This document shows positions 236 through 22,392 of a stretch of DNA of 39,233 nucleotides, piece by piece; the stretch's first letter is position 1; each line of letters starts with the position of its first letter. A program made the translations under genes and the position numbers. Below the pieces are notes generated by a model. The model did not search any database. It was not told the origin of the DNA and saw only the letters and a list, made by a program, of their open reading frames with translations. The stretch comes from Lachnospiraceae bacterium (GTDB taxonomy: Bacteria; Bacillota; Clostridia; Lachnospirales; Lachnospiraceae): contig JAILNV010000232.1 in NCBI GenBank assembly GCA_024691125.1, positions 1 through 39,233 of the forward strand, read 5' to 3'.

Positions 236-370
236 ATTTACTGGCTTTCTCTGGCACCACGGAAAATGCTGGTCGTGCTTATCGGACTGGTTGTCATATT
301 CAGGGATCAGCTTACTTCTCTTGTAAACGGGATCTTTGAAAGGATCGTTAATGACAGTTCGGCTGTTTAG
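236..370 (+). pseudogene. C-terminal remnant of a Flp-type pilin-like small protein
   Basis: From an ATG at 266 the frame reads a 34-residue peptide starting MLVVLIGLVVIFRDQLTSLV and ending NDSSAV, with TAG at 368-370. The hydrophobic stretch followed by RDQLTSLVNGIF resembles the C-terminal part of the small Flp1-like prepilins that precede DUF5702 and TadE genes in Lachnospiraceae. The usual N-terminal half, with a basic leader and a G-x-x-x-x-E processing motif, is absent. The frame is closed by TGA at 233-235, and I could not restore the N-terminus in another frame. The stop codon overlaps the start of the next gene, which fits an old translational coupling. It may be a 5'-truncated pseudogene or a very short membrane peptide. 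The family assignment is by pattern memory only. Confidence 0.45.
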
Positions 371-2643: not shown

Positions 2644-2676
2644 ATATTGACAGGAAAAACCTGATGAGGACTTTTT

Positions 2677-3162
2677 ATGTGGATAATTTGCTTACTATTG
2701 CTGATCATTTGCAGTTATACAGATCTTAGGGAGCGCGGCATAAGCATATGGCTTCTTGCCGCATCCCTCATATCCTGTGTCCTGCTTATGATGTGCGTTG
2801 AAATATATGGAGACAGTTATGAGTATATTGATAACCTGCTTATATATGAGCCGGATATCTTTAAAATTTTAAGCTCCCTTATTCCGGGAAGTGTTTTATT
2901 TATAATAAGCAGGCTTACAAAGGAAGCAATAGGGATGGGTGATGTATATGTGATGCTGTTGCTTGGTTTTATGATGGGCTTTACAAATACGGCAGCGCTG
3001 CTGTTTGTATCAATGTTTATAGCATCAGTATTTGGTATCCTGCTGATGCTGTTTAAGGGAAAGAGCAGAAAGGAGACACTTCCATATATGCCATTCCTCT
3101 TGGGAGCTTATGTGTGGATGCTGTTTTCCGGAATGCTTCAGGGAGTACAGATCGGATTATGA
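2677..3162 (+). CDS. A24-family prepilin peptidase (TadV/CpaA-like)
   Basis: 161 residues, almost wholly hydrophobic with about five to six membrane helices. The two catalytic aspartates of the GxGD aspartic peptidases are present: D16 in SYTDLRER at the end of the first helix, and D89 in GMGD. This is the short form, without the N-terminal methyltransferase domain of PilD, typical of Tad/Flp pilus loci. It would cleave the leader from Flp and TadE-like prepilins at the inner face of the membrane. The gene lies 33 bases after the TadE-like gene, with GAGGA upstream of the ATG. Assignment is firm from the two Asp motifs and the context. Confidence 0.88.
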   Translation: MWIICLLLLIICSYTDLRERGISIWLLAASLISCVLLMMCVEIYGDSYEYIDNLLIYEPDIFKILSSLIPGSVLFIISRLTKEAIGMGDVYVMLLLGFMMGFTNTAALLFVSMFIASVFGILLMLFKGKSRKETLPYMPFLLGAYVWMLFSGMLQGVQIGL

Positions 3163-3183
3163 CAATTGTAGGAACAGATAATA

Positions 3184-3648
3184 ATGAAAGAAAGCGAAAC
3201 AGAAACAGTGAATGAGAAATTAAAAGGAAGCATGACAATAGAGATGACTCTCTTAATGCCTTTCATACTTGGGAGCTTTATCTTTATAATTTTTTCAGGA
3301 TTTATATTACATGATAAATGTATTGTAAATAAAGCCTGTATGTCGGCAGCGCTCCGGGGAAGTGAAGAGACGGAACCCGGTAAGGCACTGGATAAGGCAA
3401 ACGAAGCCATATCCGAGGTGCTGCCGGGTCGCCTCATAGGCAAATGGGATTACAGTACCCAGATAGATGTAGGAGAGGATGCTGTAAGAGTAAGCTTTAA
3501 GGGCGATACCGGGATGGGCGGAGGGCTTATCCGAAAGCTTATAAGCTCCGGAACAACAGGACACAATTACGAATGTGAAAGTTACAGACTTAATGAAGCT
3601 GAATACATAAGAACAAAAAGGAAATCGGGTGTGGGATATTGTTTGTAG
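3184..3648 (+). CDS. TadE-like pilus assembly protein (second copy)
   Basis: 154 residues. A short acidic leader ends in KGSMTIEMTLLMPFILGSFI, the TadE-type segment, followed by a membrane helix at about residues 20-40. The remaining 110 residues have no recognised domain and are presumably extracytoplasmic. It shares the S-M/L-T-I-E motif with the protein at 1756-2643 but lacks the Cys-rich tail, so the locus encodes two unequal TadE-like proteins, as is common (TadE/TadF pairs). An AGGA sits nine bases before the ATG. The 3' end overlaps the next gene by ten bases. Confidence 0.75.
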   Translation: MKESETETVNEKLKGSMTIEMTLLMPFILGSFIFIIFSGFILHDKCIVNKACMSAALRGSEETEPGKALDKANEAISEVLPGRLIGKWDYSTQIDVGEDAVRVSFKGDTGMGGGLIRKLISSGTTGHNYECESYRLNEAEYIRTKRKSGVGYCL

Positions 3649-5009
3649 AAAAATATGATAACGGAATTAACGGAAACTATCTTACATTGGAAAACGAGCA
3701 GGCGGTGAATGCCGGATACAAATCAAGGATGCTTGTAGAAAACCCGGTGAATGCTTTTCTGAAGACCGGGATAGTGCATACGGACGGGAAGGAACAGTAT
3801 GTTTATGACATAACTTCCAAGACAAGTATTTACAGTCTCTATGAGCATACTGAAATGGACAGACGTTTTATCGGCGCTTTCATAAGTGCGGTAGCATGTG
3901 GTCTTGAAGCATGTGATGAATACCTTCTGCCCGCTGAACATTTATTGTTTGATCCGAAGCATATATATGTGGATCAGAGTAATGACCGTATTCTTTTTTG
4001 TTACTATCCGGGTTCATATACTACGCTTACAGATGGAATGAATTCGCTTGCAGAGTACATTCTTGAAAGAGCCGATCATACCGATAAGGCTGCAACGACT
4101 CTGGCATATGATCTGTATAAACAGGTTGTGAACGAAGATTATACATTGCGTGAGCTGCTTTCGCGAAATGAGAAGACAGAAGCGGCAAAAGATGATGCAG
4201 ACCGGGAAGAAGACAGCTTTCTTATAGAGGATATAAATGATCTCTATCTTCCGGATGAGGATGATATGCCTGTGATTCCCATTCAGGGTAAGGTAATAAT
4301 GAGTGTCTGTTCAGCCCTTCTTCTGATCATAACTGGAACCATCCTTACATCAGTCATATACGGTAATGAAGCACTGACTGCTCTTCTTGCCATGACTGAG
4401 ATGAGGGTATTAACTGCCATAACATGTGCCGTCTGTATTATTATGCCTGTATTTATCATCATAAAATGGTACAGTGAGGTAAGAAGATTTAAGAAGCTGC
4501 TTAATGAAGCAGAGGATGACAGGGATGATATTTATATGTATCTGTCAGACGACGAACAGACCAAAGCTACGGGGCGGTTGGGCTTTGATCGGACAAATAC
4601 GGTATTATTATCTCAGGATAATGATACGGCTACGGAAGACGGGCATATAGGCAATACGGTCAGACTGTCAGACGATTCGAAGCAGGAAAGTGATAACGGA
4701 ATTGGCACACGTGGAATGATACACAGACTGGTCCAGTTTTCACAACAGGGGCTTAATGAGCTTAAAATAGACAGGCTTCCTTATACAATAGGGAAGAAAA
4801 GAGGTATCTGTGACGGAATAATAGAATCCGATGCCGTCAGCAGGATACATGCAAGACTGGTGTTCGAAGGAGGAGAGTATTATATGTCCGATCTAAACAG
4901 TACAAACGGAACCTTCGTGAACGGCAGCAGGCTTGAATCCGGTGATAAGATAAGACTGAATATAAACGATGAGATAAGCTTCGGAAAGGAATTGTATTAT
5001 TTCAGATAG
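3639..5009 (+). CDS. DUF6382 and FHA-domain membrane protein
   Basis: 456 residues beginning at a TTG that overlaps the preceding stop; no better start is visible. Residues 1-160 match the pattern of DUF6382, a domain found next to Tad loci in Lachnospiraceae. Acidic linkers flank two membrane helices at about 222-275. The C-terminal 85 residues form an FHA domain with the expected motifs: TIGKKRG, SRIHAR and NSTNGTFVNG. FHA domains bind phosphothreonine peptides, so the protein probably responds to Ser/Thr phosphorylation. No Ser/Thr kinase lies in the window, so any partner must be elsewhere. It closes the pilus cluster and probably links assembly to a signalling state; this is inference. 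Confidence 0.75.
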   Translation: MFVEKYDNGINGNYLTLENEQAVNAGYKSRMLVENPVNAFLKTGIVHTDGKEQYVYDITSKTSIYSLYEHTEMDRRFIGAFISAVACGLEACDEYLLPAEHLLFDPKHIYVDQSNDRILFCYYPGSYTTLTDGMNSLAEYILERADHTDKAATTLAYDLYKQVVNEDYTLRELLSRNEKTEAAKDDADREEDSFLIEDINDLYLPDEDDMPVIPIQGKVIMSVCSALLLIITGTILTSVIYGNEALTALLAMTEMRVLTAITCAVCIIMPVFIIIKWYSEVRRFKKLLNEAEDDRDDIYMYLSDDEQTKATGRLGFDRTNTVLLSQDNDTATEDGHIGNTVRLSDDSKQESDNGIGTRGMIHRLVQFSQQGLNELKIDRLPYTIGKKRGICDGIIESDAVSRIHARLVFEGGEYYMSDLNSTNGTFVNGSRLESGDKIRLNINDEISFGKELYYFR

Positions 5010-7869: not shown

Positions 7870-10125
7870 ATGTATCAGTTTGTCATAAGTGTTCTGTATT
7901 TTACAATAGCGGGATTGTTCGCTGTATGCTGGTTTGCTTTAAGGAAATGGAAAAGCAGGCTTCACACATACCTTTTCTTCAGCTGTGTTGCCAATCTGGT
8001 ATATGACACAGGCTGTCTTCTCGAGCTTCATTCCCATAGTCAGGAAACATATGTTACAGCGCTGAAAATGGCATATCTTGGCAGGATATGGATAGGTCTG
8101 TCACTCTTTCTGTTCCTTGTTGAGCTCTGCGATGTCAAATTCCCGGAGAGCTTAAGAACCGTAGCTGCGGTAATTCATATAGGTATATATGCCACAATCC
8201 TGAATCTTGAAAGCAACGATCTTTATTATAATTATATGGAATTCGTAATGGACGGAGATTTTCCCAAGCTTCTGCACACGGGGGGACCTCTTTATTATGT
8301 TTTGACCGCTCTTAACCTTTTCTATACTGTGGGCGGAATGTATATGATAACAAGGTCTTTTATACGTGAGAAGAACTCAATTGCCAAGAAACGATACTTT
8401 ATGATGACTATAGCAATCTATTCTTTGGGCGTAACATATGTTATCTATTTCTTTAAGCTGATACCGCTTGCCCGCAAGATCGATGTAATGATAATCGGAT
8501 TTGCCATCTGTACGGTCTTTATGCTCGTTGCGATCATCAGATACAGAATGCTCGATATTAAGAGTGCCGCACAGAGCTATGTTGTGGATGAGCTGTCCGA
8601 AGAGATCATATTTGCGGATGCTGACGGAATGATCACCTATTTTAATAAGCCGGCACAGAAGCTGTTTGAAGAAACAGGCGCAGGCAGGTGTGAAGAGGAT
8701 TGCGCAATGGAGCTGATAGATAGCTTTAAAAACGCGATCGAAGAAGGTAAGCCACTGAGACTAAACGGTAAAATATATACACCCAGAGCTAATCGTCTTG
8801 CTGAAAATGGAAACATTGTGGGTACGCTGTATACACTTTCCGATGACAGTGAGCATTACCGTTATATGGAAGAACTAAAAGAGCAGAAACAGATAGCCGA
8901 TGAAGCAAACGCGGCAAAATCACAATTCCTTGCGAACATGTCCCATGAGATACGTACCCCCATAAATGCAGTGCTTGGTTTCAATGAGCTTATAATCAGA
9001 GAATGTACGGAAGCGGGAGAATCTGCCCAAGCAGGCAGATCCTTTGAAAATATAAGGATGTACGCCGGCAATATCCAGAGTGCGGGCGGAAACCTGCTGT
9101 CCATAATCAATGATATACTTGATCTGTCCAAAATAGAGGCAGGCAGGATGGATATTGTGGATGCGCCATATACTCTTACAGACCTCCTTAATGATGTGAG
9201 TAACATGGTGTTCTTTAAAGCAAAGGAAAAGGGTCTGGAATTTACGGCAGATGTGGATGAGACTCTGCCGGATAAGCTATACGGAGATAAGGCAAGAGTG
9301 CGTCAGGTGATCACAAATATCCTGTCAAATGCAGTAAAGTATACAGATAGGGGCAGTGTACGTATAAAGGTTCGTGGAAGGGCAGAAGGCGGAATGGAGC
9401 CGGGGCAGATGCTTCGACTTTCGATAGAAATAAAGGATACCGGCATAGGTATGCGCCATGAGGAAATGGATAAGCTCTTTACCAAGTTCCAGAGACTGGA
9501 TCTGTCGCATAACAGTACGATAGAGGGAACAGGCCTCGGGCTTGCGATCTCTCATCAGCTTATGACAATGATGGGCGGAACGATAGAGGTAGAAAGTGAA
9601 TATGGAAGCGGATCTGTCTTTAGGATAGAGCTTCCTCAGAAGATAGTTTCAACACAGCCGGTAGGGGACTTCCGTGAAAGGTTTGAAAAGGATATTCTGT
9701 CTATAAAGGAATATAAAGAGGAATTCAGAGCACCTTCGGCGCACATTCTGGTCGTTGATGATACAAGAGTAAATCATAAGGTAGCAAAGGGCCTGTTGAA
9801 GAAAACGCTTATACAGATAGATATTGCAGAAAGCGGAGAGCAGGCGATAAACCTGGCCCGTGAGAATAAGTATGACCTTATACTTATGGATCAGAGAATG
9901 CCTCAGATGGACGGGACCGAGGCGCTTATGCATATAAGAGAGCAGAAAGACGGCAGGAATGTCACAACGCCTGTCATCTGTCTGACGGCCGATGCAATAA
10001 TCGGAGCAAAGGAGCGGTATATGGCCGAAGGCTTTACTGATTATCTGGCAAAGCCGATAAACAGCCATGAGCTGGAACAGACGCTGATCAAATATCTTCC
10101 CAAAGATAAAATAATAAGCTGTTAA
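7870..10125 (+). CDS. 7TM-sensor hybrid histidine kinase (7TM-PAS-HisKA-HATPase-REC)
   Basis: 751 residues. Residues 1-235 contain seven hydrophobic helices of the type called histidine kinase N-terminal 7TM. A PAS-like segment follows at about 240-340 (EIIFADADGMITYFNKPAQKL). The H box FLANMSHEIRTP places the phospho-histidine at H359. The HATPase domain has the N box (NILSNAVKYT), DTGIGM and GTGLGLAIS. The receiver has its acidic pocket in LVVDD and phospho-aspartate D674 in LMDQRMPQMDG, with the conserved Thr (LTAD) and Lys (LAKP). It has no HPt domain and no DNA-binding output, so phosphoryl transfer onward must involve another protein. First gene of the 10-kb operon; AGGTGAT precedes the ATG. 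The ligand is unknown. Confidence 0.92.
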   Translation: MYQFVISVLYFTIAGLFAVCWFALRKWKSRLHTYLFFSCVANLVYDTGCLLELHSHSQETYVTALKMAYLGRIWIGLSLFLFLVELCDVKFPESLRTVAAVIHIGIYATILNLESNDLYYNYMEFVMDGDFPKLLHTGGPLYYVLTALNLFYTVGGMYMITRSFIREKNSIAKKRYFMMTIAIYSLGVTYVIYFFKLIPLARKIDVMIIGFAICTVFMLVAIIRYRMLDIKSAAQSYVVDELSEEIIFADADGMITYFNKPAQKLFEETGAGRCEEDCAMELIDSFKNAIEEGKPLRLNGKIYTPRANRLAENGNIVGTLYTLSDDSEHYRYMEELKEQKQIADEANAAKSQFLANMSHEIRTPINAVLGFNELIIRECTEAGESAQAGRSFENIRMYAGNIQSAGGNLLSIINDILDLSKIEAGRMDIVDAPYTLTDLLNDVSNMVFFKAKEKGLEFTADVDETLPDKLYGDKARVRQVITNILSNAVKYTDRGSVRIKVRGRAEGGMEPGQMLRLSIEIKDTGIGMRHEEMDKLFTKFQRLDLSHNSTIEGTGLGLAISHQLMTMMGGTIEVESEYGSGSVFRIELPQKIVSTQPVGDFRERFEKDILSIKEYKEEFRAPSAHILVVDDTRVNHKVAKGLLKKTLIQIDIAESGEQAINLARENKYDLILMDQRMPQMDGTEALMHIREQKDGRNVTTPVICLTADAIIGAKERYMAEGFTDYLAKPINSHELEQTLIKYLPKDKIISC

Positions 10126-10176: not shown

Positions 10177-12555
10177 ATGGCGGACTGGATAATCGTAGTT
10201 GATGATGATATATCGAACTTAAAAGTAGCAGGTAAAATATTAAGCAGCCATAATATGCGTGTGACGGCTCTTAATTCGGGGCAGGCACTTCTTGATTACG
10301 TACGTACGAACGGAGCTCCGGATATAATTCTGCTTGATATAAAAATGCATGTAATGAACGGATTTGATACGCTTGAAAAATACCGTATCTTAGAGGAGGA
10401 ACTTGGTATTCCAAAAGTACCGGTAATATTCCTTACGGCAGATGATGACAGTACATCCGAAAGAAAAGGTTTTGATATGGGTGTTTCCGATTACATAAGG
10501 AAGCCCTTTGATCCTGATATCCTGGTCCGCAGAGTAGAAAATATAGTAAGCACCCACGGACAGATGGTTAAATTTGAAGAAGAGGCTACCATAGACAAGC
10601 TAACGGGTTTTCTTAACAAATCAACAGTAAATGACCGCATAAGCAGACATTGCATTCAGGAAGCGGGTTGTCTTATCATAATCGATCTTGATTCATTTAA
10701 GCTGGTAAATGATATATATGGCCACGAGACGGGCGATGAGGTACTTAAAGCCTTCACGCAGATAATGAAGGACAGTCTGCCGGAGGGTGGAACCTTCGGA
10801 CGTATAGGAGGGGATGAATTCCTTATTTTCACTAATGCTGTAAGGGATGAAGAGAGACTGAAGGTATATTCGGAAACAATAAATAATGAGATGGTCAGAG
10901 CCGCCAACAGAATAATGGGCGAGAAGATGGGTATTCCGATAGGAGCATCTGTCGGAGCGGTCATGGTACCGGAGGCAGGCAGAGATTTCGCTGAGCTGTT
11001 CCATATTGCCGACCGTGTTCTTTACCATGTCAAGAATAACGGTAAGCATGGATATAAGCTGTACAGCACGGAAGGTGACCTGCGGGAAGATGATGTACCG
11101 GGAGATATGGATATTAAGACTCTGTCACATATTCTCGAGGAAAGAAGCATGCCTCAGAGTGCAATGTGGATGGGACGCGAGGCCTTCGGAAATATATACC
11201 GTTACATGATAAGATATATGGACCGCTACAGAGGTACAGCATACAAGCTCCTTTTTACAGCCCGTTTTGTCCACAGTCAGCTGCCGGCAGCTGAGAGGAT
11301 GGAGATAATAGAGCATTTCAGAGAGCTCCTTCAGAATTCGTTAAGAAACAGTGATGTTATGATGCAGATAGGTGAGAATCATTTCTTTCTGCTGCTTCCC
11401 GAGATAACGGAATACAATGTGGAACGGGTTATAGACCGCATCAGAAAATCATGGTCGGCAGGTGATTACGGCAGACTCGTTGAGCTTTTGGTCGAATTGG
11501 GCAGCGTCGATACGGATCTTCACGAAAACCCATACAAAGAGGAGAAAAAGAATGACTGGGTAGTGGTGGTTGACGACGATCAGGCCAATCTTACTCTTGT
11601 CGGCAGGATATTGAGTAAGAATAATATGCGTGTAACGGCACTGAAATCAGGGCAGGCTCTGCTTGATTTTATGAAAGACAACGATCCGGATCTTGTCCTG
11701 CTTGATATAAAAATGCCCGAAATGAATGGTTTTGAGACTCTTGGATTATTAAGGGAGCAGGGTGGAGGAGCATTCAGAACACCTGTGATTTTTCTTACCG
11801 CCGATGAGGATGAGGAAACAGAGACAAAGGGATTAGCGCTTGGTGCAATGGATTTTATCAGGAAGCCAATAGTACCCGACAGCCTTATCCTGCGTGTAAA
11901 GCATACTCTTGAGCTCGTACTTTTGCAGAATCATCTTACGCAGGAGGTTGAGAGAAAGACTGAAGAGAATGAGAATCTGACACTTGATATAGTAAAAGCG
12001 CTGGCCGAGGCTATAGATGCCAAGGATACCTATACGAAAGGCCATTCGGGTAGGGTAGCCGAGTATTCGAGAGAGATTGCAAGAAGGTTCGGATATTCCG
12101 AACAGAAGCTTGATGAGATATATATGATGGGACTGCTTCATGACGTAGGTAAGATAGGAGTTCCCGATGCCGTGATAAATAAGCCGGCAAAGCTTACAGA
12201 TGCGGAATTTGAACTTATTAAGGCTCATCCTGTTAAGGGAGCCAAGATACTTGAGAATATTAAAGATATGCCTAAGCTTGCGGATGGAGCCAGATGGCAT
12301 CATGAAAGGTATGGGGGAGGCGGTTATCCCGACGGACTTAAAGGAGATGAGATACCGGAGGTGGCAAGGATAATAGCCGTTGCGGATTCCTATGATGCGA
12401 TGACAAGCCGCAGAAGCTACAGAGACCCGTTGCCGCAGGGCTTTGTAAGGAACGAGATACTGCAAGGGAGCGGAACGCAGTTTGATCCGAGATTTGCGGA
12501 TATTATGATCTCAATGATTGATGAGGACAAGGATTTCGATATGAGGGAGAAATAG
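10177..12555 (+). CDS. REC-GGDEF-degenerate GGDEF-REC-HD-GYP cyclic-di-GMP protein
   Basis: 792 residues, cytoplasmic, no membrane helices. REC1 spans 1-125 with phospho-site D54. A GGDEF domain (about 135-300) has DKLTG and an intact GGDEF at 211-215, so it should make cyclic di-GMP; no RxxD inhibitory site precedes it. Residues 310-440 look like a second GGDEF fold whose signature has become GENHF (399-403), so it should be inactive. REC2 spans 460-585 with phospho-site D510. The HD-GYP domain follows with H655-D656 in HDVGKIGVP and GYP at 716-718 in a complete HHERYGGGGYP motif, so phosphodiesterase activity is likely. REC1 and REC2 are close repeats (NMRVTAL, SGQALLD in both). REC1 has His where the Pro after the phospho-site usually sits (KMHVMNG). 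Ends one base before the next start. Confidence 0.92.
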   Translation: MADWIIVVDDDISNLKVAGKILSSHNMRVTALNSGQALLDYVRTNGAPDIILLDIKMHVMNGFDTLEKYRILEEELGIPKVPVIFLTADDDSTSERKGFDMGVSDYIRKPFDPDILVRRVENIVSTHGQMVKFEEEATIDKLTGFLNKSTVNDRISRHCIQEAGCLIIIDLDSFKLVNDIYGHETGDEVLKAFTQIMKDSLPEGGTFGRIGGDEFLIFTNAVRDEERLKVYSETINNEMVRAANRIMGEKMGIPIGASVGAVMVPEAGRDFAELFHIADRVLYHVKNNGKHGYKLYSTEGDLREDDVPGDMDIKTLSHILEERSMPQSAMWMGREAFGNIYRYMIRYMDRYRGTAYKLLFTARFVHSQLPAAERMEIIEHFRELLQNSLRNSDVMMQIGENHFFLLLPEITEYNVERVIDRIRKSWSAGDYGRLVELLVELGSVDTDLHENPYKEEKKNDWVVVVDDDQANLTLVGRILSKNNMRVTALKSGQALLDFMKDNDPDLVLLDIKMPEMNGFETLGLLREQGGGAFRTPVIFLTADEDEETETKGLALGAMDFIRKPIVPDSLILRVKHTLELVLLQNHLTQEVERKTEENENLTLDIVKALAEAIDAKDTYTKGHSGRVAEYSREIARRFGYSEQKLDEIYMMGLLHDVGKIGVPDAVINKPAKLTDAEFELIKAHPVKGAKILENIKDMPKLADGARWHHERYGGGGYPDGLKGDEIPEVARIIAVADSYDAMTSRRSYRDPLPQGFVRNEILQGSGTQFDPRFADIMISMIDEDKDFDMREK

Positions 12556-12556
12556 A

Positions 12557-15199
12557 ATGGGAGAACAAAATATAGAGAAAAATGAACTGTTTAATACTTC
12601 ACATATCATGATCCTTCTGGCTTACACCATCTTTTCGGTCATTCTGATAGGTGAATCATTGCTTATGTCATGGGAGAAATGGGCACTTGTTGTGATATGT
12701 GCCGCTCTTATGGCAAGCTGGACCATGCATATCAGGCAAATGCTTAAACCTCGTGAAAGACTATGGATATATTCCCTGCTGATGATGGGAACTTTTTTTT
12801 TCTACGGGATACATGAGACGAGCACCTATGACCTTGCCGTGATAATGTCGGCTGTGATAATACTTTATACGATGACAGGTATCAAGAAGCTTATCAATCT
12901 GTGTATAATAACCTACTATCTGACGATGGCATATGAGATCATCTTAATGGTACGTGGCGGAACAAAGCTTGATGCACTTATTATAAGCCGTACGATCATG
13001 CATCTTATCGTAATCTTTATGACAGGATGGTTTGCAGGTACCATTATAGACAGATGGGGTCAGGTGCTTGATGAATCCATGAAGGAGATTGATTTTCTTA
13101 AGGAAGCCACCAAAAGACTGGATGATTTTCTGGCAAATGTATCTCATGAGATACGTACACCGGTTAATGCGGTAGTAGGGCTTTCAGGCGTATGCATTGA
13201 GAAAGCAGAGAACAGTGAACTGGTTTCCGAGCTTAAGGCAATTCAGGATGCCGGTAAGAGGGTCGGAGAGCAGATCAGCGACATTCTGGATTATTCGGAG
13301 ATAGACAGGAATATCCTTGTCAGGAATGATGAGGATTACATGCTGGCTTCCGTGCTGTATGATCTGGTAATGCAGCTTCGTCCATACAAACACCCTGATA
13401 TAGAGCTGATCATAGATGTGGATCCGGCGATACCGGCTATTATGCATTCGGATGTCAACAAGATTAAGAAGATATTGTGGCATCTTATAATGAACGGGCT
13501 TAAATATACCGTAAATGGGGGAGTATATGTCAGGATCTCGGCTACCGAGCAGTCCTATGGTATCAACCTGTGCATTGAAGTTACCGATACGGGTATAGGA
13601 ATGAATGAGGAAGAACTTGAACGTATGAAGGAAAGGTTCTACCAGGCCGATTCGGGACGCACAAGGATGGGAGGTGGTCTGGGTCTCGGTATCCCTATAG
13701 TAAGCGGATTCGTTATGTCGCTGGGTGGCTTCCTGACTGTTCATTCCAAACCGGGCGAGGGTACTACAGTAAGGGTATCTGTTCCGCAGAAAGTCATAGA
13801 TCCTGCTGGATGTATGTCATTGCTTCGCAGGGAGAGCCTGTGTCTTGGAGCATATCTGAATTTCGATAAATATCCGGATCCACATGTACGGGAATACTAT
13901 AACAGAATGGTAAGCAATATAGTACATGGTCTGAATGTGCAGATGCACAGGGTGGATAATATAGAGAATCTGAAAAGGCTGACAGGATCCGTGAGGCTTA
14001 CACATCTTTTTGTGGCTGCTGAAGAATACGAGAGCGATCCTTCCTATATAGAAAAGCTTACAGGTGAAATGACAGTTATAGTCGTGGCAGATGATGATCT
14101 GGCTCTGCCGGAAGGTTCTCGCGCGATCCTGATGGAGAAGCCATTTTACTGCTTCCCTGTAACTACTATCCTTAACATGGAGCCGGGTTATGAACAGGAT
14201 AATATCAGGATGAGGTGTATAGGACTCAAAGCGCTGGTTGTTGATGATGAACCCATGAACCTGACAGTGGCCAAAGGGATCTTTCGGAATTATGGCATGG
14301 AGGTTACAACGGTGCTTTCGGGACAGGCTGCCATCGATATATGCAGAAATGAACATTTTGATATCGTGTTTATGGATCATATGATGCCCGGAATGGACGG
14401 TATTGAGGCCATGAAAGCAATCAGAGCTGACAGGCATGGCGGGACGGGAGATATGCCGATCATAGCACTGACGGCCAATGCCGTCAGCACGGCAAAGGAG
14501 ATGTTTATTTCAGTAGGTTTTGACGGGTTTGTCAGCAAGCCTGTTGAGATCATTGAGCTCGAGAGAGTATTAAAGAGAGTACTTCCCAAATCTGCAATAA
14601 CATATGAGAGTGTTTCAAAAACCGCTCACAGGGTTACAGGTGATAGTGCCGGCTTACAAACGGGAAATACGGATGAAAACAGCAGTACATCTTTCATATC
14701 CGATGTCGGGATCGATATGGAAGCGGGTCTTAGATATTCCCAGAATGACCGGGAGTTGTACGAGACTATTCTTAAACAGTTTGTAACCGAAGCTCCGGAT
14801 AAGAAAAAGAAGATTACGGATTCATATAGAAAGGAAGACTATAAGGATTATGAGATATATGTACACGCTCTTAAGAGTACTTCCAGGATGATCGGTGCAT
14901 CCTTACTCTCTGAAAGGGCAAAGGAGCTGGAAGATAAGGCAAAGAAGGGTGGAACCGGGATCACGGAACAAATGCATAACGAAATGATGGCATTATATAA
15001 TAAAACAGTTGATGCTATCGCCGGATGGCTGAATCCCGAAGATACTGAAGAAGTTACAGCACCATGTGTTATCGAATTTGAACCGGCTCCCTTTGTTATG
15101 GAATTTGAGCCTGGATCCGGTGAAGAAGATACTTACGATCCAATCCCGGATACCGGATATGGGAAAGAGGCAGCAGGAGCGGAAGGAGGTAAGAAATGA
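12557..15199 (+). CDS. Tripartite hybrid histidine kinase with HPt domain
   Basis: 880 residues. About six membrane helices lie in residues 15-170. The H box FLANVSHEIRTPVNAVVGL places the phospho-histidine at H197. The HATPase domain follows (N in HLIMNGLKYT, DTGIGM, GGGLGLGIPIV). Residues about 425-550 look like a receiver fold that has lost its phospho-aspartate. A genuine receiver follows with D607 in FMDHMMPGMDG. An HPt domain is at about 710-835 with H770 in HALKSTSRMIGA. The acidic tail contains a doubled VIEFEP/VMEFEP motif of unknown use. This is the BarA/ArcB-like arrangement and the only HPt domain in the window. It starts one base after the previous stop and its TGA overlaps the next ATG. 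Confidence 0.92.
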   Translation: MGEQNIEKNELFNTSHIMILLAYTIFSVILIGESLLMSWEKWALVVICAALMASWTMHIRQMLKPRERLWIYSLLMMGTFFFYGIHETSTYDLAVIMSAVIILYTMTGIKKLINLCIITYYLTMAYEIILMVRGGTKLDALIISRTIMHLIVIFMTGWFAGTIIDRWGQVLDESMKEIDFLKEATKRLDDFLANVSHEIRTPVNAVVGLSGVCIEKAENSELVSELKAIQDAGKRVGEQISDILDYSEIDRNILVRNDEDYMLASVLYDLVMQLRPYKHPDIELIIDVDPAIPAIMHSDVNKIKKILWHLIMNGLKYTVNGGVYVRISATEQSYGINLCIEVTDTGIGMNEEELERMKERFYQADSGRTRMGGGLGLGIPIVSGFVMSLGGFLTVHSKPGEGTTVRVSVPQKVIDPAGCMSLLRRESLCLGAYLNFDKYPDPHVREYYNRMVSNIVHGLNVQMHRVDNIENLKRLTGSVRLTHLFVAAEEYESDPSYIEKLTGEMTVIVVADDDLALPEGSRAILMEKPFYCFPVTTILNMEPGYEQDNIRMRCIGLKALVVDDEPMNLTVAKGIFRNYGMEVTTVLSGQAAIDICRNEHFDIVFMDHMMPGMDGIEAMKAIRADRHGGTGDMPIIALTANAVSTAKEMFISVGFDGFVSKPVEIIELERVLKRVLPKSAITYESVSKTAHRVTGDSAGLQTGNTDENSSTSFISDVGIDMEAGLRYSQNDRELYETILKQFVTEAPDKKKKITDSYRKEDYKDYEIYVHALKSTSRMIGASLLSERAKELEDKAKKGGTGITEQMHNEMMALYNKTVDAIAGWLNPEDTEEVTAPCVIEFEPAPFVMEFEPGSGEEDTYDPIPDTGYGKEAAGAEGGKK

Positions 15200-17874
15200 T
15201 TAAGCTTATCAAGAAGGGTATAGAGCATCTTACGGGAGATGAGCTTGACTTCAGGGATCGCCAGTTCATACTTCTGACCGTTATGGTACAGATAGCATTA
15301 ATGTGTGTTTTTGCTGCGGATATCATCCTTGGTGAGAATATTGTTGAAATAATTGTATTGGGAGTCTCGGCTGTTTTCTTCCCTTTGCTGTTCATTATCC
15401 TGTTTAAGCTGAAAAAACTGGATCTGTGCAGGATAATTATTGCTCTTAATGCCATCTTTGTTATCCTTCCCGTCTGTTTCTTTTATGGAGGAGGTACGAG
15501 AGGAGGCTCACTTATCTGGTTTTCTCTTACATTCTTTTATGTGGGAATGATACTCAGCGGTAAATGGCGTGCCATAATGCTGTCAATAATTTCGCTAACA
15601 GCAGTTATTGAATGCTATATGGGTTTCAGACATTCGTCTATGGTATTCCCGCATTCATCTAAAATGGCTGTGTTGGATACCCTGGTTTCCGTGATCATAG
15701 TGGGTCTTGTTATCTATATAATGACATCCTTTCAGAATCTTCTGTTCATTAATGAGAATAAGAAGGCAAGGATGGAAGCGGAGAAGGTAGAAGAGATGAG
15801 CAGAGCCCAGAACCGCTTCTTCTCAAACATGAGTCACGAAATACGCACTCCGATAAATACCATAATAGGCTTTAACGAGATGATACTCAGGGAGGATATT
15901 TCGGATGAAGTGGCGGAGGATGCAGCCAATATAGAGGCGGCCGGAAAGATCCTTCTTCATCTTATAAACGATATACTTGATATGTCCAAGATCCAGTCCG
16001 GACAGATGGAACTGGCAAAGGCAGCGTATAATCCGGGGGACATGCTTTCTGAGATAGTGGCAATGATGTGGATGAGGGCAAGGGATAAGGAGCTGGATTT
16101 TCATGTTAATGTTTCTCCGGATATTCCCTCGGAGCTTATCGGTGATGAGGTAAGGATCAAGCAGATACTTATCAATATTGTAAATAACGCCATAAAGTAT
16201 ACAAGGGAAGGCTCCGTAACCCTGACCGTTCAGTGCGGTGAAAGAAATGGGGATTCCATGAATATAATATATACTGTATCTGATACCGGAATCGGAATAA
16301 GAAAGGAAAGTCTTCCACATCTGTTTAATGCTTTTAGAAGAGTTGACGAAGATAACAACCGTTATATAGAGGGTACAGGCCTTGGATTGTCCATAGTCAA
16401 ACAGCTGGTAGATCTGATGGGTGGCCGTATCACGGTTAACAGTATCTATACTCAGGGTTCAACCTTTATTGTGGAGATACCACAGGATGTATCCGGAAAC
16501 TCCGTAATAGGTGAGCTGGATATGGCAAACAGGAATATACTCAGCGGAAGAGAGGCGTACAGACAGAAGTTTGAAGCACCATCAGCAAGGCTTTTGGTGG
16601 TGGATGATAATGAATCCAATCTGCTTGTGGCAAGAAAGCTTCTGCGTGCCACACAGATACAGATAGATACGGCATCGAGTGGCAGGGAAGCGTTGGAACT
16701 CACATTAAATAACAAATATAATGTAATATTTATGGATCATCTGATGCCTGAAATGGATGGTATTGAGTGCTTAAGAAATATAAGAGCTCAGGCTGGAGGC
16801 AAATGCAGAGAAACGGCAATAGTTGCCCTTACAGCAAATGCAGGAGAGGAAAACCGGCAGCTATACAGGAAGGAAGGCTTTGATTCTTATATAGAGAAGC
16901 CTGTGAGTGGAAATATATTAGAAAGAGAGCTGTACCGTCTTCTTCCGAAGGAACTGGTACATAAAATCGGTGAGGAAGAGGAAATAACAGAAGAGAGTAT
17001 GTCATGGATGGAGACCCGTGAACGCAAGAGGACGATCGCTGTCACAACCGAGAGTGTAGCAGATCTTCCGCAGGAGATGCTTGATAAGTACGGAATTTCG
17101 ATTATTGAGCATAAGGTTGTGACGGAGGAAGGTATATTCAGGGATGGAGCCGAGATAGAAACAGACGGTCTGTTAAGTTATATGGAAGAACCTGATCATA
17201 AGGTTTCAACGTTGTCGCCGGATGTTGCGGATCATGAAAGCTTCTTTGCAAACGGCCTTGTATCGGCCAATAATATAATACATATAGCAATCTCTGCAGA
17301 TATAAAAAACAGTGGATATCCGCACGCACTGGAAGCAGCCCGTTCATTTGGCAATGTAACTGTTATTGACAGCAGGCATCTGTCGTCCGGACAGGGTCTT
17401 GTCGTGCTTAAGGCATGTGCTCTTGTGGAAGAAGGAAAGTCACCGAATGATATAAAAGAGCTTCTTGATGAGAGCATAAAGAAGATACATACAAGCTTTA
17501 TTGTAAATAATCTTGATTTTCTCTCTCGGGCAGGGCAGGTAAGTCACAGACTTGCCAATCTGATGAATGTTCTTATGATAAGACCGGTGCTTGTTATGAA
17601 GAAAGGCAGGCTCAAGGTTGGTAAATTCTATCTGGGAGCCAGGGAAAGAGTCTGGAAGAGATATATTGATTCGGTTTTGGTACCGAATGGCAATATTGAC
17701 AGGAGTATCCTGTTTGTAACATATGTGGGGCTCACCAAGCGGGATAAAGAGCTGATAAGATCATACATTGATGAGAGAATGAAGTTCGATAAGATATATT
17801 TCCAAAAAACAACCCCCGCCATAGCTGTTAACTGTGGCGAGGGAACCTTTGGGCTTCTGTATACCGAAGCATGA
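15196..17874 (+). CDS. Hybrid histidine kinase-receiver fused to a DegV domain
   Basis: 892 residues. Six membrane helices lie in residues 20-185. The H box FFSNMSHEIRTPINTIIGF gives H214. The HATPase domain has NIVNNAIKYT, DTGIGI and GTGLGLSIV. The receiver phospho-site is D514 in FMDHLMPEMDG. From about residue 614 to the end the protein reads as a complete DegV/EDD fold: TIAVTTESVADLP (usually TDSTADLP), KVSTLSPDVADHESFF, ISADIKNSGYPHALEAA, VIDSRHLSSGQGL, NLDFLSRAGQVSH and the IRPVLVMKKGRLKV strand pair. DegV proteins of the FakB type bind a fatty acid. The usual GGRIS loop is AGQVS here, losing a conserved Arg. Nothing in the sequence suggests a fused artefact: the frame is continuous and the linker is ordinary. 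ATG overlaps the preceding TGA; AAGGAGGT is an excellent ribosome binding site. Confidence 0.92.
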   Translation: MIKLIKKGIEHLTGDELDFRDRQFILLTVMVQIALMCVFAADIILGENIVEIIVLGVSAVFFPLLFIILFKLKKLDLCRIIIALNAIFVILPVCFFYGGGTRGGSLIWFSLTFFYVGMILSGKWRAIMLSIISLTAVIECYMGFRHSSMVFPHSSKMAVLDTLVSVIIVGLVIYIMTSFQNLLFINENKKARMEAEKVEEMSRAQNRFFSNMSHEIRTPINTIIGFNEMILREDISDEVAEDAANIEAAGKILLHLINDILDMSKIQSGQMELAKAAYNPGDMLSEIVAMMWMRARDKELDFHVNVSPDIPSELIGDEVRIKQILINIVNNAIKYTREGSVTLTVQCGERNGDSMNIIYTVSDTGIGIRKESLPHLFNAFRRVDEDNNRYIEGTGLGLSIVKQLVDLMGGRITVNSIYTQGSTFIVEIPQDVSGNSVIGELDMANRNILSGREAYRQKFEAPSARLLVVDDNESNLLVARKLLRATQIQIDTASSGREALELTLNNKYNVIFMDHLMPEMDGIECLRNIRAQAGGKCRETAIVALTANAGEENRQLYRKEGFDSYIEKPVSGNILERELYRLLPKELVHKIGEEEEITEESMSWMETRERKRTIAVTTESVADLPQEMLDKYGISIIEHKVVTEEGIFRDGAEIETDGLLSYMEEPDHKVSTLSPDVADHESFFANGLVSANNIIHIAISADIKNSGYPHALEAARSFGNVTVIDSRHLSSGQGLVVLKACALVEEGKSPNDIKELLDESIKKIHTSFIVNNLDFLSRAGQVSHRLANLMNVLMIRPVLVMKKGRLKVGKFYLGARERVWKRYIDSVLVPNGNIDRSILFVTYVGLTKRDKELIRSYIDERMKFDKIYFQKTTPAIAVNCGEGTFGLLYTEA
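17804..17843 (-). terminator. Terminator of the rubrerythrin gene inside the kinase-DegV coding end
   Basis: Read on the minus strand, CCCTCGCCACAG, a 7-base loop and CTATGGCGGGGG form a GC-rich stem of 12 positions (one A-C mismatch, one G-T pair), followed at once by TTGTTTTTT. This is a textbook intrinsic terminator for the rubrerythrin transcript. It lies within the last 25 codons of the convergent kinase-DegV gene. On the plus strand it is not followed by a T-run. Confidence 0.75.
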
Positions 17875-17905: not shown

Positions 17906-18490
17906 TTATTTGAAATATCTGTCGAGTAATCCCTTAAGAGCTTTGCCATGCCTTGCTTCATCCCTGGCCATTTCATGGACGGTGTCATGGATCGCATCGA
18001 GATTATTCTTCTTTGCGCATGCCGCAAGATCGAATTTACCCTGTGTTGCGCCGAACTCGCAGTCGACACGCCATGCAAGGTTATCCTTGGTGGTAGCCTT
18101 CATGTTTGGTTCCAGATCCTCACCGAGGAGCTCTGCAAACTTAGCTGCATGTTCTGCCTCTTCATAAGCAGCCTTTTCCCAGTAAAGGCCTACTTCGGGA
18201 TATCCCTCGCGATGGGCAATACGAGCCATGCAAAGATACATGCCTACTTCTGAACATTCACCGTTGAAATTAGCCTTAAGCTGTTCGAAGATATATTTCT
18301 TGTCTTCGTCTGTTATATCGGGATTGTTTTTAACTGTCTTTGCATAGATTCCGTATTCATGCTCAGCAGCCAGTTTCATCTCACCTTCAACGGCTTTGAA
18401 TTTATCAGCTCCGACACCACATACAGGACACTTCTCGGGAGGAGTGTCGCCCTCATAAACATATCCACATACCTGACATACGTACTTCAT
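17906..18490 (-). CDS. Reverse rubrerythrin (rubredoxin-ferritin-like peroxidase)
   Basis: 194 residues. The N-terminal rubredoxin domain has C5 and C8 ([10 protein letters not shown]) and C21 and C24 (CPVCG), which bind one iron. The ferritin-like four-helix domain has [17 protein letters not shown] and DEARHGKA, the di-iron Glu/His ligands. With the rubredoxin at the N-terminus it is a reverse rubrerythrin, an NADH-dependent peroxide and oxygen reductase in clostridia; automatic annotation often says NADH peroxidase. It protects an obligate anaerobe against oxygen. GAAAGGAG lies before the ATG. The promoter carries a PerR-box-like palindrome (see that entry). It is convergent with the kinase operon, 31 bases apart. 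Confidence 0.93.
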
Positions 18491-18801: not shown

Positions 18802-19785
18802 ATGAAAGGGAAAGAACAGGATATCAGAAAACGGGTATTTAATATAGTAGAAATAGGAAGCGGCGGGGATATTGCGAGCATTGTTTTTGACAGATTTATA
18901 ATGGTCGTAATCTTTGTAAACCTGTTCGTTACGGTGGCGCAGACATTTGAGGAGATGAAATCATATATGCCACTGTTGAACGCTGCTGAGCTTATAACGA
19001 TACTGATATTTGTTGTGGAGTATATACTCAGAGTATGGACAGCGGATTATCTGTATCCGGAAGAGAACAGTAAATGGAAGGGAAGATTAAGGTTCATGCT
19101 CTCGATATACGGGCTCATAGATCTGTTTGTCATAATACCATACTTCCTTCCGTTCCTCATTCCGGAAGGTGCCGTAGCCTTCAGGATGTTCAGAGTAATA
19201 AGAATACTACGGTTATTTAGAATTAATTCAAGGTATGACGCCTTTAATGTAATTGCATCGATACTTATAGAGAAAAAAAATCAGCTGATATCTTCAATGG
19301 CCATGATTTTGATACTTATGCTTGCATCTTCACTGTGTATGTACAGTCTGGAACACGATGCACAGCCCGATCAGTTCAAAAATGCCTTCTCTGGAATATG
19401 GTGGTCGGTGTCAACACTGCTTACGGTAGGTTACGGAGACATATATCCGGTCACTGCGGCCGGTAGAATAATGGCTATTATTATAGCCTTCCTGGGAGTC
19501 GGTATGGTGGCTGTTCCGACAGGTATAATATCAGCCGGATTCGTTGAACAGTATACTGAAATGAAGATCATGGGAGAGCCGCTTGAAGACAGCGGGCTTA
19601 AATATGTAACATCAAGAATTAAAAAGGACAGTGGATGGGTAGGCCTGAGGATAAAAGAAATCCATTTCATGCCGGATATGGTTCCACTTATGGTGGTGAG
19701 AGAAAAAGAGAAGATGGCTGCTGATCCGGAGCTTGAGCTTATGGAAGATGATCTTGTGATCATAGCTGTGAACTCACTTAACTGA
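18802..19785 (+). CDS. Voltage-gated-type potassium channel with RCK-C domain
   Basis: 327 residues. Six transmembrane segments S1-S6 occupy residues about 25-255. S4 shows positive residues at every third position (RMFRVIRILRLFRINSR), the voltage-sensor pattern. The pore loop holds the potassium selectivity filter TVGYGD at residues 208-213. The last 60 residues (VGLRIKEIHFMPDMVPLMVV to the end) read as a TrkA-C/RCK-C ligand-binding domain without the Rossmann half. Some RCK-C domains bind cyclic di-AMP, but nothing here proves a ligand. The start is the first ATG after AAAGGGACAGGGG. It stands alone between two minus-strand genes. A weak CTGAT/ATCAG hairpin at 19827-19842 may end the transcript. 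Confidence 0.93.
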   Translation: MKGKEQDIRKRVFNIVEIGSGGDIASIVFDRFIMVVIFVNLFVTVAQTFEEMKSYMPLLNAAELITILIFVVEYILRVWTADYLYPEENSKWKGRLRFMLSIYGLIDLFVIIPYFLPFLIPEGAVAFRMFRVIRILRLFRINSRYDAFNVIASILIEKKNQLISSMAMILILMLASSLCMYSLEHDAQPDQFKNAFSGIWWSVSTLLTVGYGDIYPVTAAGRIMAIIIAFLGVGMVAVPTGIISAGFVEQYTEMKIMGEPLEDSGLKYVTSRIKKDSGWVGLRIKEIHFMPDMVPLMVVREKEKMAADPELELMEDDLVIIAVNSLN

Positions 19786-20592: not shown

Positions 20593-22392
20593 ATGTTTAA
20601 TAAATACAAGAATCTTTTTAAATATCTGATAAGAGAAGAGCTGGAGATGCAGCACCGTCTTATGAATATAATACTGACTGTAGGGACTGTGGCTCTTTTG
20701 GTATGTATAGTTTTTGATTTTGTAATCGGAACAGGATCAAGAACATTCTGGATAATGCTTTTGCTCATTGCTTCGTTCATATTTTCACTCTATGTTGCCA
20801 ATGTCAGAAACAAGCCGAATGCTGCAGGAGTGATCCTGGGAGTTGTTGCCAGTTACTTCCTAATGCCGGTACTGTATTTTACAGAAGGCGGCAAAGAATC
20901 CGCCATGCCTATGTGGCTTATGCTGTCTGCTCTGTTTATCTGGCTTATTGTGCGTGGATGGCCCTGTATCATTATTTATATAGGTGATATCGTTATTTAC
21001 AGTACTCTTCTTATGATAGAGTATTATCATCCCGAGCTGGTTATGCCGATGCCCGATAAAAAGGCCGAATATGTAGATTATATTTTCGCAATTGCGAGCA
21101 TAGTATTGATCTTCGGCGTAATATATAAGTTTCAGAGCCGGATATATGAGAGAAAGAAGAAAGAGCTGGAGGTAAAGGAACAGGAGCTTATTGAGCTTAA
21201 TACCAGTCTTGAAGCAGCCAATGAAGCCAAATCGGATTTCCTTGCAAGAATGTCACATGAAATAAGGACACCGATAAATGCGGTCATTGGCATGGATGAA
21301 ATGATCCTTCGTGAGAGTAGTGAAAGAAATGTGCTTGATTATGCGACGAATATCGAGAACGCTTCCCAAACCCTGCTTTCACTTATAAATGATATCCTTG
21401 ATTTTTCCAAGATAGAATCGGGACTCATGAAGATTATTCCGGAAGAATATGAGATATATACTCTTTTGGATTACTGCTACAGTCTTCTCAAGATACGGGC
21501 AGGAGACAAGGGACTGGTGCTTAATCTTGAATATGATAAGAACCTCCCTTCCAGGCTTATGGGAGATGAGCTGAGGATAAGGCAGATAATAACCAATCTG
21601 CTGACCAACGCTGTGAAGTACACTGATACAGGCTCTATTACCTTCAGAGTGAACAAGAGACGTAAAGGTGAGAAACTTATTGATCTCATAATAAGCGTTG
21701 AAGATACCGGAAGAGGCATATCAGAGGAAGGAATAGGTGCGATCTTTGATTCCTTCCAAAGAGCCGATGAAAAGAAAAACCGAAATATCGAGGGTACAGG
21801 CCTGGGTCTTGCGATCACGAAACAGCTGGTTGATCTTATGGGTGGATCGATAAGAGTTCACAGCAGATTAGGTGATGGATCCGAGTTTACCGTAACGATA
21901 CCGCAGGAAATAGTATCGGATGAACCCCTCGGTAATCTTGATGATAAGCTTAACAGGAAGAAAACATCAGGAGAGAATTACAAGGAGGCATTCAAAGCGC
22001 CGAAAGCGCGGATCCTTATTGTTGATGATGTTGCGGTTAATCATAAGGTTATCAAACTCCTGCTTAAGACAACAGAGATACAGGTAAATACGGCAAACAG
22101 TGGTCCACAGTGCCTTGAAATGTATGAAAAGGAACATTATGATCTTATACTGCTGGATCATATGATGCCGGAAATGGACGGAATCGAGACTCTTAAAAGA
22201 ATGGTTATGACTGATAAATATAATAAGGAAAGAACTCCTGTGGTCGCTCTTACGGCCAATGCCATCCAGGGTGCTGAAAAGGAGTACATCGATGCAGGTT
22301 TTACTGACTATCTTACAAAACCTGTCCAGGGAGCAGATCTTGAGAAAATGATACTTAAATATCTGCCGCCAGAGCTTGTCGAAGAACAATAG
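20593..22392 (+). CDS. Hybrid histidine kinase (TM-HisKA-HATPase-REC)
   Basis: 599 residues. Six membrane helices lie in residues about 20-180 with short loops, so the sensor is membrane-embedded. A coiled-coil linker (KKKELEVKEQELIELN) leads to the H box FLARMSHEIRTPINAVIG with H222. The HATPase domain has NLLTNAVKYT, DTGRGI (usually DTGIGI) and GTGLGLAIT. The receiver has D522 in LLDHMMPEMDG and the switch Thr and Lys. No HPt and no output domain. Its organisation and its TM region (PVLYFTEGGKESAMPMWLM against PVCFFYGGGTRGGSLIWFS) mark it as a close paralogue of the kinase part of the DegV fusion at 15196-17874. It is transcribed alone and would need an HPt partner. Confidence 0.92.
   Translation: MFNKYKNLFKYLIREELEMQHRLMNIILTVGTVALLVCIVFDFVIGTGSRTFWIMLLLIASFIFSLYVANVRNKPNAAGVILGVVASYFLMPVLYFTEGGKESAMPMWLMLSALFIWLIVRGWPCIIIYIGDIVIYSTLLMIEYYHPELVMPMPDKKAEYVDYIFAIASIVLIFGVIYKFQSRIYERKKKELEVKEQELIELNTSLEAANEAKSDFLARMSHEIRTPINAVIGMDEMILRESSERNVLDYATNIENASQTLLSLINDILDFSKIESGLMKIIPEEYEIYTLLDYCYSLLKIRAGDKGLVLNLEYDKNLPSRLMGDELRIRQIITNLLTNAVKYTDTGSITFRVNKRRKGEKLIDLIISVEDTGRGISEEGIGAIFDSFQRADEKKNRNIEGTGLGLAITKQLVDLMGGSIRVHSRLGDGSEFTVTIPQEIVSDEPLGNLDDKLNRKKTSGENYKEAFKAPKARILIVDDVAVNHKVIKLLLKTTEIQVNTANSGPQCLEMYEKEHYDLILLDHMMPEMDGIETLKRMVMTDKYNKERTPVVALTANAIQGAEKEYIDAGFTDYLTKPVQGADLEKMILKYLPPELVEEQ

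Follow-up and report, generated by a model that had tools for sequence, protein, structure and literature searches.

Few bacterial signalling receptors for fatty acids are known to us. In the RpfC/RpfG system, as presented in PMC5391125, a fatty-acid signal (the diffusible signal factor, DSF) activates a hybrid histidine kinase (HK) that carries five membrane helices, a receiver (REC) and a histidine phosphotransfer (HPt) domain and acts on an HD-GYP phosphodiesterase, the sensor being a short N-terminal segment beside the helices. In Staphylococcus aureus, free fatty acids inhibit SaeRS signalling, an effect tied to fatty acid kinase (PMC5539427). For the FakB1 protein of the fatty acid kinase system, PMC8892158 and PMC9136124 describe Arg205 as key for binding both FakA and the membrane, Arg173 as required in the FakA kinase reaction, FakB(R173A) showing normal fatty acid exchange while being dead in the kinase assay, and Thr62, Ser95 and His270 as a network at the fatty-acid carboxylate. 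Here we analyse a stretch of 39,233 nucleotides from a Lachnospiraceae bacterium (assembly GCA_024691125.1, contig JAILNV010000232.1, forward strand), hereafter the window, in which one gene (15196-17874, + strand) joins a hybrid histidine kinase to a DegV/FakB-fold domain. We read this domain as a FakB-derived lipid receptor that is no longer a substrate of fatty acid kinase and that would feed a paired-kinase phosphorelay ending, here, on cyclic di-GMP (c-di-GMP), and we give this reading a probability of roughly 45%. It draws on the modelled fold, on kinase and receiver residues that are all intact, on the disappearance of His270 and of the arginines that face FakA, and on the neighbouring genes: a second kinase that forms a conserved pair with this one, a single HPt in nearly every pair and, in the window, a c-di-GMP enzyme. 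In the literature searched, which left out subscription journals and database architecture lists, we found no description of a DegV-kinase fusion and no FakB-fold signalling receptor for fatty acids.

The gene and its domains, in the order 6TM-HisKA-HATPase-REC-DegV (6TM, six membrane helices), are as follows.

15196-17874 (+): six-helix hybrid histidine kinase with a C-terminal DegV domain, 892 aa (frame translation, Pfam, NCBIfam, AlphaFold2 helices)
15196-15765 (+): six-helix membrane domain, residues 1-190 (helices from the AlphaFold2 model)
15805-16002 (+): HisKA, residues 204-269, phospho-acceptor H214 (Pfam E 1.5e-18; H214 invariant in a 50-row alignment)
16141-16485 (+): HATPase_c, residues 316-430 (Pfam E 2.4e-28)
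16594-16920 (+): receiver (Response_reg), residues 467-575, with D514, D470, D471, T546 and K568 (Pfam E 4.2e-21)
17032-17865 (+): DegV/FakB-fold domain, residues 613-890 (Pfam DegV, NCBIfam, AlphaFold2, Foldseek)

Translation gives a single open frame of 892 residues with zero internal stops, and, together with Pfam and the AlphaFold2 (AF2) model, bears out the architecture proposed in an earlier note on this DNA, namely an unbroken frame with six membrane helices, HisKA (H214), HATPase, receiver (D514) and DegV. H214 lies in the motif MSHEIRTP (from residue 212) and D514 in FMDHLMP (from residue 512), and with the HATPase and the receiver Lys also present, the protein has the sequence features of a hybrid histidine kinase. 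The window protein and 49 relatives picked for complete frames all share the phospho-acceptor His and the Asp, Thr and Lys residues of the receiver, and the Pfam families HisKA, HATPase, Response_reg and DegV were found in all 50. Five of the 50 also gave a weak match to the FakA-like C-terminal family (best E 3e-6), behind which there may be a fold common to FakA_C and DegV. The AF2 helices at 19-45, 49-71, 75-97, 105-119, 122-145 and 155-232, the last a long signalling helix, are in line with six membrane helices; residues 1-190 matched no Pfam family at E <= 0.05.

Membership of the DegV superfamily is placed well above the curated cut-offs, with 138.3 bits (E 4e-40) against 27 for Pfam DegV (PF02645) and 160.5 bits against 99.7 for TIGR00762 in NCBIfam. 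The last domain models as the two-domain DegV/FakB fold: the AF2 model of the DegV domain (60-row alignment) has a mean predicted local distance difference test score (pLDDT) of 91.1 and a predicted TM-score (pTM) of 0.88, and its top Foldseek matches in the PDB are DegV/FakB lipid-binding chains, the best being 1pzx (TMq 0.83), with FakB1 bound to palmitate (5uto) at TMq 0.81. The possibility that the C-terminal domain was not a DegV fold, by which the earlier note would have failed, thus did not materialise. A stretch of lower confidence, domain residues 181-200 (block mean pLDDT 73 and 77), corresponds to the mobile lid of FakB, and 97 of the 100 fused domains have L, I, V, M or F at the pocket position that is Ala121 in FakB1. 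The window domain therefore has its fold in common with FakB/DegV proteins (S. aureus FakB1 5uto; DegV 3fys; 1pzx), as well as Thr62; it differs from them in that Arg173, Arg205 and His270 are replaced and in that such domains are fused to, or encoded with, kinases. Weak Foldseek matches (E 1.6e-8 to 3.3e-8) were also found to 2iu4 and 2iu6, DhaQ/DhaS of Lactococcus lactis. DhaQ/DhaS is a case in which a metabolic kinase subunit of related fold has turned co-activator; it acts on a transcription factor and binds dihydroxyacetone, and is not a two-component system.

By alignment, the FakB1 residues correspond to the following positions of the window protein.

17209-17211 (+): T672, equivalent to Thr62 (carboxylate network), kept
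17536-17538 (+): Q781, equivalent to Arg173 (FakA catalysis), lost
17632-17634 (+): L813, equivalent to Arg205 (FakA and membrane binding), lost
17830-17832 (+): N879, equivalent to His270, changed

The Ser95 column holds N705, with S706 adjoining and the gap placement unsure. For the count across the family, the alignment comprised 100 fused domains, 54 non-duplicate DegV frames that stand alone and FakB1, after the removal of one 160-aa contig-end fragment (L069), then of 5/105 DegV frames (match incomplete or doubled, or frame below 450 aa) and of 2/56 stand-alone frames as duplicates; the stand-alone controls were the best matches to the fused profile or to Pfam DegV, plus those of the source genome, and are not a random draw. 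Arg173 is kept in 23/100 fused against 53/54 stand-alone domains, Arg205 in 1/100 against 49/54, and His270 in 1/100 against 49/54, with Asn in its place in 88/100 fused domains, and these three contrasts persist when the sequences are thinned to 90, 70 or 50 percent identity. Both arginines occur together in none of the 100 fused domains and in 49 of the 54 stand-alone ones. The remaining carboxylate residues are less sharply divided (Thr62, 36/100 with Ser in 46 more against 49/54; Ser95, 45/100 against 52/54).

The genome of the window also encodes three stand-alone DegV frames, each with all five FakB residues, and a single FakA, which has the Dak2, middle and C-terminal domains. Because Arg173 and Arg205 are lost while canonical DegVs and FakA are retained in the same genome, the fused domain appears to have lost what FakA needs next to a normal Fak system, and turnover by FakA is improbable. 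Since it has the two-domain fold and lacks Arg173, Arg205 and the complete Thr62-Ser95-His270 network, we class the window protein, on its sequence, as a DegV superfamily and hybrid kinase member rather than as a FakB. The earlier note had pointed to the loop AGQVS (residues 779-783) in place of GGRIS as a sign of changed chemistry. Q781 does replace Arg173 there, but this is not the most consistent loss, Arg205 and His270 each being gone in 99/100, and these two appear to be better marks of the fused clade than the change in the GGR loop. The further suggestion, a change from FakB transfer to pure sensing, agrees with the loss of the FakA contact residues. Separately, a haemolysin-III-family gene lies immediately before one of the canonical stand-alone DegVs of this genome (L009:4810-5481, +), a neighbourhood that agrees with the one noted in PMC3146951.

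A tree of 56 domains (28 fused, 3 split, 24 stand-alone and FakB1) grouped the fused and split domains in one clade (support 100/99.9), apart from the stand-alone DegVs used; within it, the split forms are sister to the fused ones (99/89 and 94/94). The split forms (L141, L142 and L145) are the only 3 of the 54 stand-alone frames with Asn at 270; none of them has Arg205, and each lies directly behind an HK-REC-HPt kinase, followed in two cases by a REC-GGDEF gene. In a scan of 54 loci, many with flanks of about 1.5 kb, with L001 and L002 overlapping and loci with 300 bp flanks left out, kinase frames were found in four, three of them split and one fused (L217), and in none of the other 50. In genome G389 the DegV domain stands N-terminal to two kinases, a long hybrid kinase of 1578 aa and a six-helix kinase of 959 aa. 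Both of these N-terminal DegV kinases of G389, at L139:1110-5846 (-) and L140:2970-5849 (-), keep a GR loop and have Asn at 270. The N-terminus is the usual place of an input domain, and a module that is found free, C-terminal or N-terminal to kinases looks input-like; because it occurs free and at either end of kinases, we consider it fairly likely that DegV serves as input rather than output.

The earlier note had treated the protein as self-contained, a view that we do not share: it is one subunit among the products of a conserved operon, which also encodes a second hybrid kinase and, here, a c-di-GMP enzyme. The genes upstream of it in the window are listed below.

7870-10125 (+): hybrid kinase with seven membrane helices (HisKA_7TM-HisKA-HATPase-REC; Pfam), opens the run, 51 bp upstream of the following gene
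10177-12555 (+): REC-GGDEF-REC-HD-GYP protein, 792 aa (Pfam; GGDEF and GYP motifs read)
12557-15199 (+): partner kinase, HK-REC-HPt, 880 aa (Pfam)
14768-14974 (+): HPt domain of the partner kinase, residues 738-806 (Pfam; the only HPt found in the two-kinase pair)

The partner kinase gene starts 1 bp past the REC-GGDEF-REC-HD-GYP gene and shares its last 4 bp (15196-15199) with the DegV kinase gene. Neighbours were scanned in 80 loci with flanks of up to 10 kb, 20 regions round long or unusual forms, the window and the paralogue of the source genome; locus domains were called with profiles built from window seeds, with a Pfam check on a subset of the proteins. Leaving out 12 of 104 fused frames (contig-end cuts or no annotated gene upstream), 92 were testable, and in 86 of them a complete kinase frame lies no more than 300 bp upstream, 83 of these pairs being within 50 bp, 48 overlapping and 85 having a REC hit. 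Among the remaining six, an HK-REC-HPt kinase lies further off in two (516 and 623 bp), a REC-HPt frame with the kinase in another frame is present in two, a truncated HPt frame in one, and in the last (L100) there is only a REC. That three genes form one functional unit is, in our view, very likely.

The placement of HPt, tabulated for the 86 pairs (the other six having no complete kinase within 300 bp upstream), is as follows: it is found in the upstream kinase only in 65, in the DegV protein only in 20, in both in 0 and in neither in 1, so that exactly one partner has an HPt in 85/86. In the exception (L110), a REC-HPt protein is encoded by the next gene downstream, and the two operons of the source genome show both states. 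Because HPt is present once per pair, a single HPt common to the two kinases is moderately likely. On the tree of HPt states, in which the group named split also contains the truncated frames L067 and L094, two independent pairs are available, and the partner HPt went the other way in 1.9 of the 2 on average.

The REC-GGDEF-REC-HD-GYP protein is the probable output, predicted to make and/or break c-di-GMP, and a c-di-GMP output in this window is likely. Across the 92 same-strand runs, GGDEF and/or HD-GYP domains occur in 61 (GGDEF only, 22; HD-GYP only, 29; both, 10). A REC-SpoIIE gene stands in front of the kinase pair at L076:4105-5256 (+), and L102 has a lone REC; at L077, L080 and L085, a REC gene of the same length as that of L076 occupies the same position.

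Placed beside the described systems, the window comes closest to RpfC/RpfG, with a membrane hybrid kinase, REC and HPt domains and an HD-GYP response regulator, the HK-REC-HPt kinase (12557-15199) and the REC/HD-GYP protein (10177-12555) lying in one run; the fatty-acid signal is shown for DSF and is supposed here. It differs in that sensing would fall to a dedicated DegV-fold domain and that each system has two kinases, and its 10177-12555 protein, unlike RpfG, also has GGDEF and a second REC. RpfC does not sense through a DegV fold, and a Pfam scan of window genes (frames of at least 90 aa) turned up no enoyl-CoA hydratase (RpfF-like) family, so we do not class the system as a member; it resembles DSF-RpfC/RpfG in logic and not in sensor. 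For SaeRS, the effect comes via the free fatty-acid pool. In GacS/RetS/LadS networks, to which the PDB matches 7z8n and 6dk7 belong, several hybrid kinases act on one phosphorelay; to our knowledge these are not an operon pair with a lipid-binding fold, nor do we know of a DegV domain in SaeS.

How the FakB-derived lipid receptor would work can be sketched as follows. The pocket would hold a free fatty acid or similar acyl lipid drawn from the membrane surface, where the six membrane helices would keep the protein; that the ligand is an acyl lipid has, we estimate, slightly better than an even chance. The ligand state would shift the lid round residues 772-795 and so alter the REC and kinase of the pair, both kinases would send their phosphoryl groups to the pair's HPt, which here belongs to the partner, and the HPt would pass them to the receivers of the REC-GGDEF-REC-HD-GYP protein, setting c-di-GMP. 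Several observations weigh against this reading: (i) DegV follows the receiver, the classic position of an output domain, and the full-length AF2 model, with a pTM of 0.43, gives no firm domain arrangement; (ii) Thr62 is the one residue of the carboxylate network that the window domain clearly keeps, and because Ser95 and Thr62 are poorly kept across the family (45/100 and 36/100, the latter with Ser in 46 more), the bound head group may be other than a plain carboxylate; (iii) Arg173 is still present in 23/100 fused domains; (iv) the HPt state changes only twice on the DegV tree, both times consistently with the one-HPt rule, so that a sign test cannot reach significance, and a Fisher test (p 1e-18) was not upheld at face value because it ignores kinship where the tree needs two changes; (v) a further HPt gene lies outside the pair in 20/86 runs, including the paralogous operon of the source genome (12/66 runs where the DegV protein has no HPt, 8/20 where it has one), and the HPt of the pair is thus not always the only one at hand; and (vi) 31/92 runs have neither GGDEF nor HD-GYP, ending at contig ends or having plain RECs or REC-SpoIIE (L076).

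Some of the same evidence would suit a DegV domain that binds no small ligand, or a quite different one, and mainly serves as a docking part holding the two kinases or the HPt together. Even as a free protein DegV is paired with an HK-REC-HPt kinase (3 cases), the neighbourhood is tight, with 83/86 pairs within 50 bp, and FakB residues are gone (His270 in 99/100, Arg173 in 77/100, Ser95 in 55/100). We regard a docking role as unlikely, if worth serious attention, given the high confidence with which the full two-domain lipid-binding fold is modelled, the lowered pLDDT (73 and 77) at the very residues equivalent to the mobile lid of FakB (domain residues 181-200) and the restriction of the Ala121 pocket position to L, I, V, M or F in 97/100.

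Two other explanations can be weighed. The earlier note had offered, as one alternative, a fatty-acid carrier switched by receiver phosphorylation, with DegV as an output whose uptake or release of fatty acid is driven by the receiver; DegV does stand behind the receiver like effector domains, and the receiver residues are invariant in 50 rows. This carrier is nevertheless disfavoured, and we hold it to be quite improbable, since the FakA contact arginine (Arg205) is lost in 99/100, the genome has its own three canonical FakB-like DegVs and FakA, and DegV also occurs N-terminal to kinases and free, without a receiver of its own. A still working FakB, tethered to the kinase and feeding FakA, could appeal to the kept fold and to the one FakA gene present, but both arginines required by FakA are replaced (Q781 and L813) and their joint occurrence, 0/100 in fused against 49/54 in stand-alone domains, led us to reject it as scarcely credible.

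Returning to the FakB-derived lipid receptor, a wider and more tentative version, doubtful at present, would extend it to the whole clade: its receptors, consistent with a single origin, would have left lipid metabolism to serve as the subunit that senses lipids in phosphorelays of two kinases and one HPt. In gut and rumen Lachnospiraceae and relatives, such relays would be the Gram-positive equivalent of DSF-RpfC/RpfG, converting fatty acids of the membrane or the environment into a c-di-GMP signal or, in some lineages, a signal to a SpoIIE-type phosphatase. Clostridia of the gut and rumen live among fatty acids that can poison or feed them, and a dedicated sensor tied to c-di-GMP would, if true, link lipid exposure to lifestyle. 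The clade, in which the domain occurs unfused, C-terminal or N-terminal, would also be a clean example of a receptor that arose from a metabolic carrier, and its soluble domain of about 290 residues is suited to direct ligand identification.

Relatives of the fusion, which the earlier note had thought might exist, do indeed exist. Another fusion, an HK-REC-DegV-HPt protein of 1144 aa, is encoded in the source genome, and at least 67 of 397 genomes of the family have an open frame of at least 680 aa round the match, with at least 93 frames in all, counted by hand among the matches listed down to about E 1e-44; in the genus, 11/13 genomes have a frame above 850 aa. A chance fusion and an assembly artefact or frameshift were ruled out because the frame is intact and the fusion recurs in the same genome (the second paralogue), family and genus, which also answers the concern about a frameshift or stop between receiver and DegV; the same recurrence across family and genus rules out a fusion confined to the source strain. 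The best 80 of 182 contigs encoding relatives are labelled mainly as Lachnospiraceae, Oscillospiraceae or Ruminococcus, Eubacterium and unplaced Clostridia, many of them ruminant-derived, with one Treponema metagenome-assembled genome among them. On that Treponema-labelled contig (L118, Spirochaetota), genes for REC-HD-GYP, HK-REC-HPt and the DegV kinase are consecutive, reflecting gene transfer or a binning error, and at L058 and L071 two DegV-kinase cassettes stand in tandem on a single contig.

In a phylum-wide draw of 398 genomes, 21 matched at E <= 1e-60, and the 18 outside the family, all of them read, have stand-alone DegVs only and no fusion. An HCG motif closes 17 of these DegVs, and the other is truncated after HC; a GGRC loop is present in 17, the pattern finding none in the remaining one. 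The stretches fetched round them, on several short contigs, contained no kinase frame, and L202 has a REC gene nearby.

Further observations concern the kinases and the surroundings of the run. The first gene of the paralogous operon (L007:15017-17323, -) encodes a dCache-HisKA-REC-HPt protein with no HATPase match, which is probably unable to autophosphorylate. Between the HATPase and REC of the partner kinases lie stretches of about 150 residues that are alike by eye (window 13787-14236 and L007:11998-12450, -); the stretch has no Pfam match at E <= 0.05 and may be a decayed receiver. Another hybrid kinase of the window (20593-22392, +) has a membrane part that matches the profile of the six-helix domain of the DegV kinase, and an ion-channel gene (18802-19785, Pfam) lies ahead of it. 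Upstream of the signalling run, genes at 336-5009 (+), with a prepilin peptidase (A24), weak TadE and FHA matches and DUF5702, are perhaps part of a Tad-type pilus cluster. Downstream, a rubrerythrin gene (17906-18490, -) converges on the DegV kinase gene, whose stop is 31 bp away.

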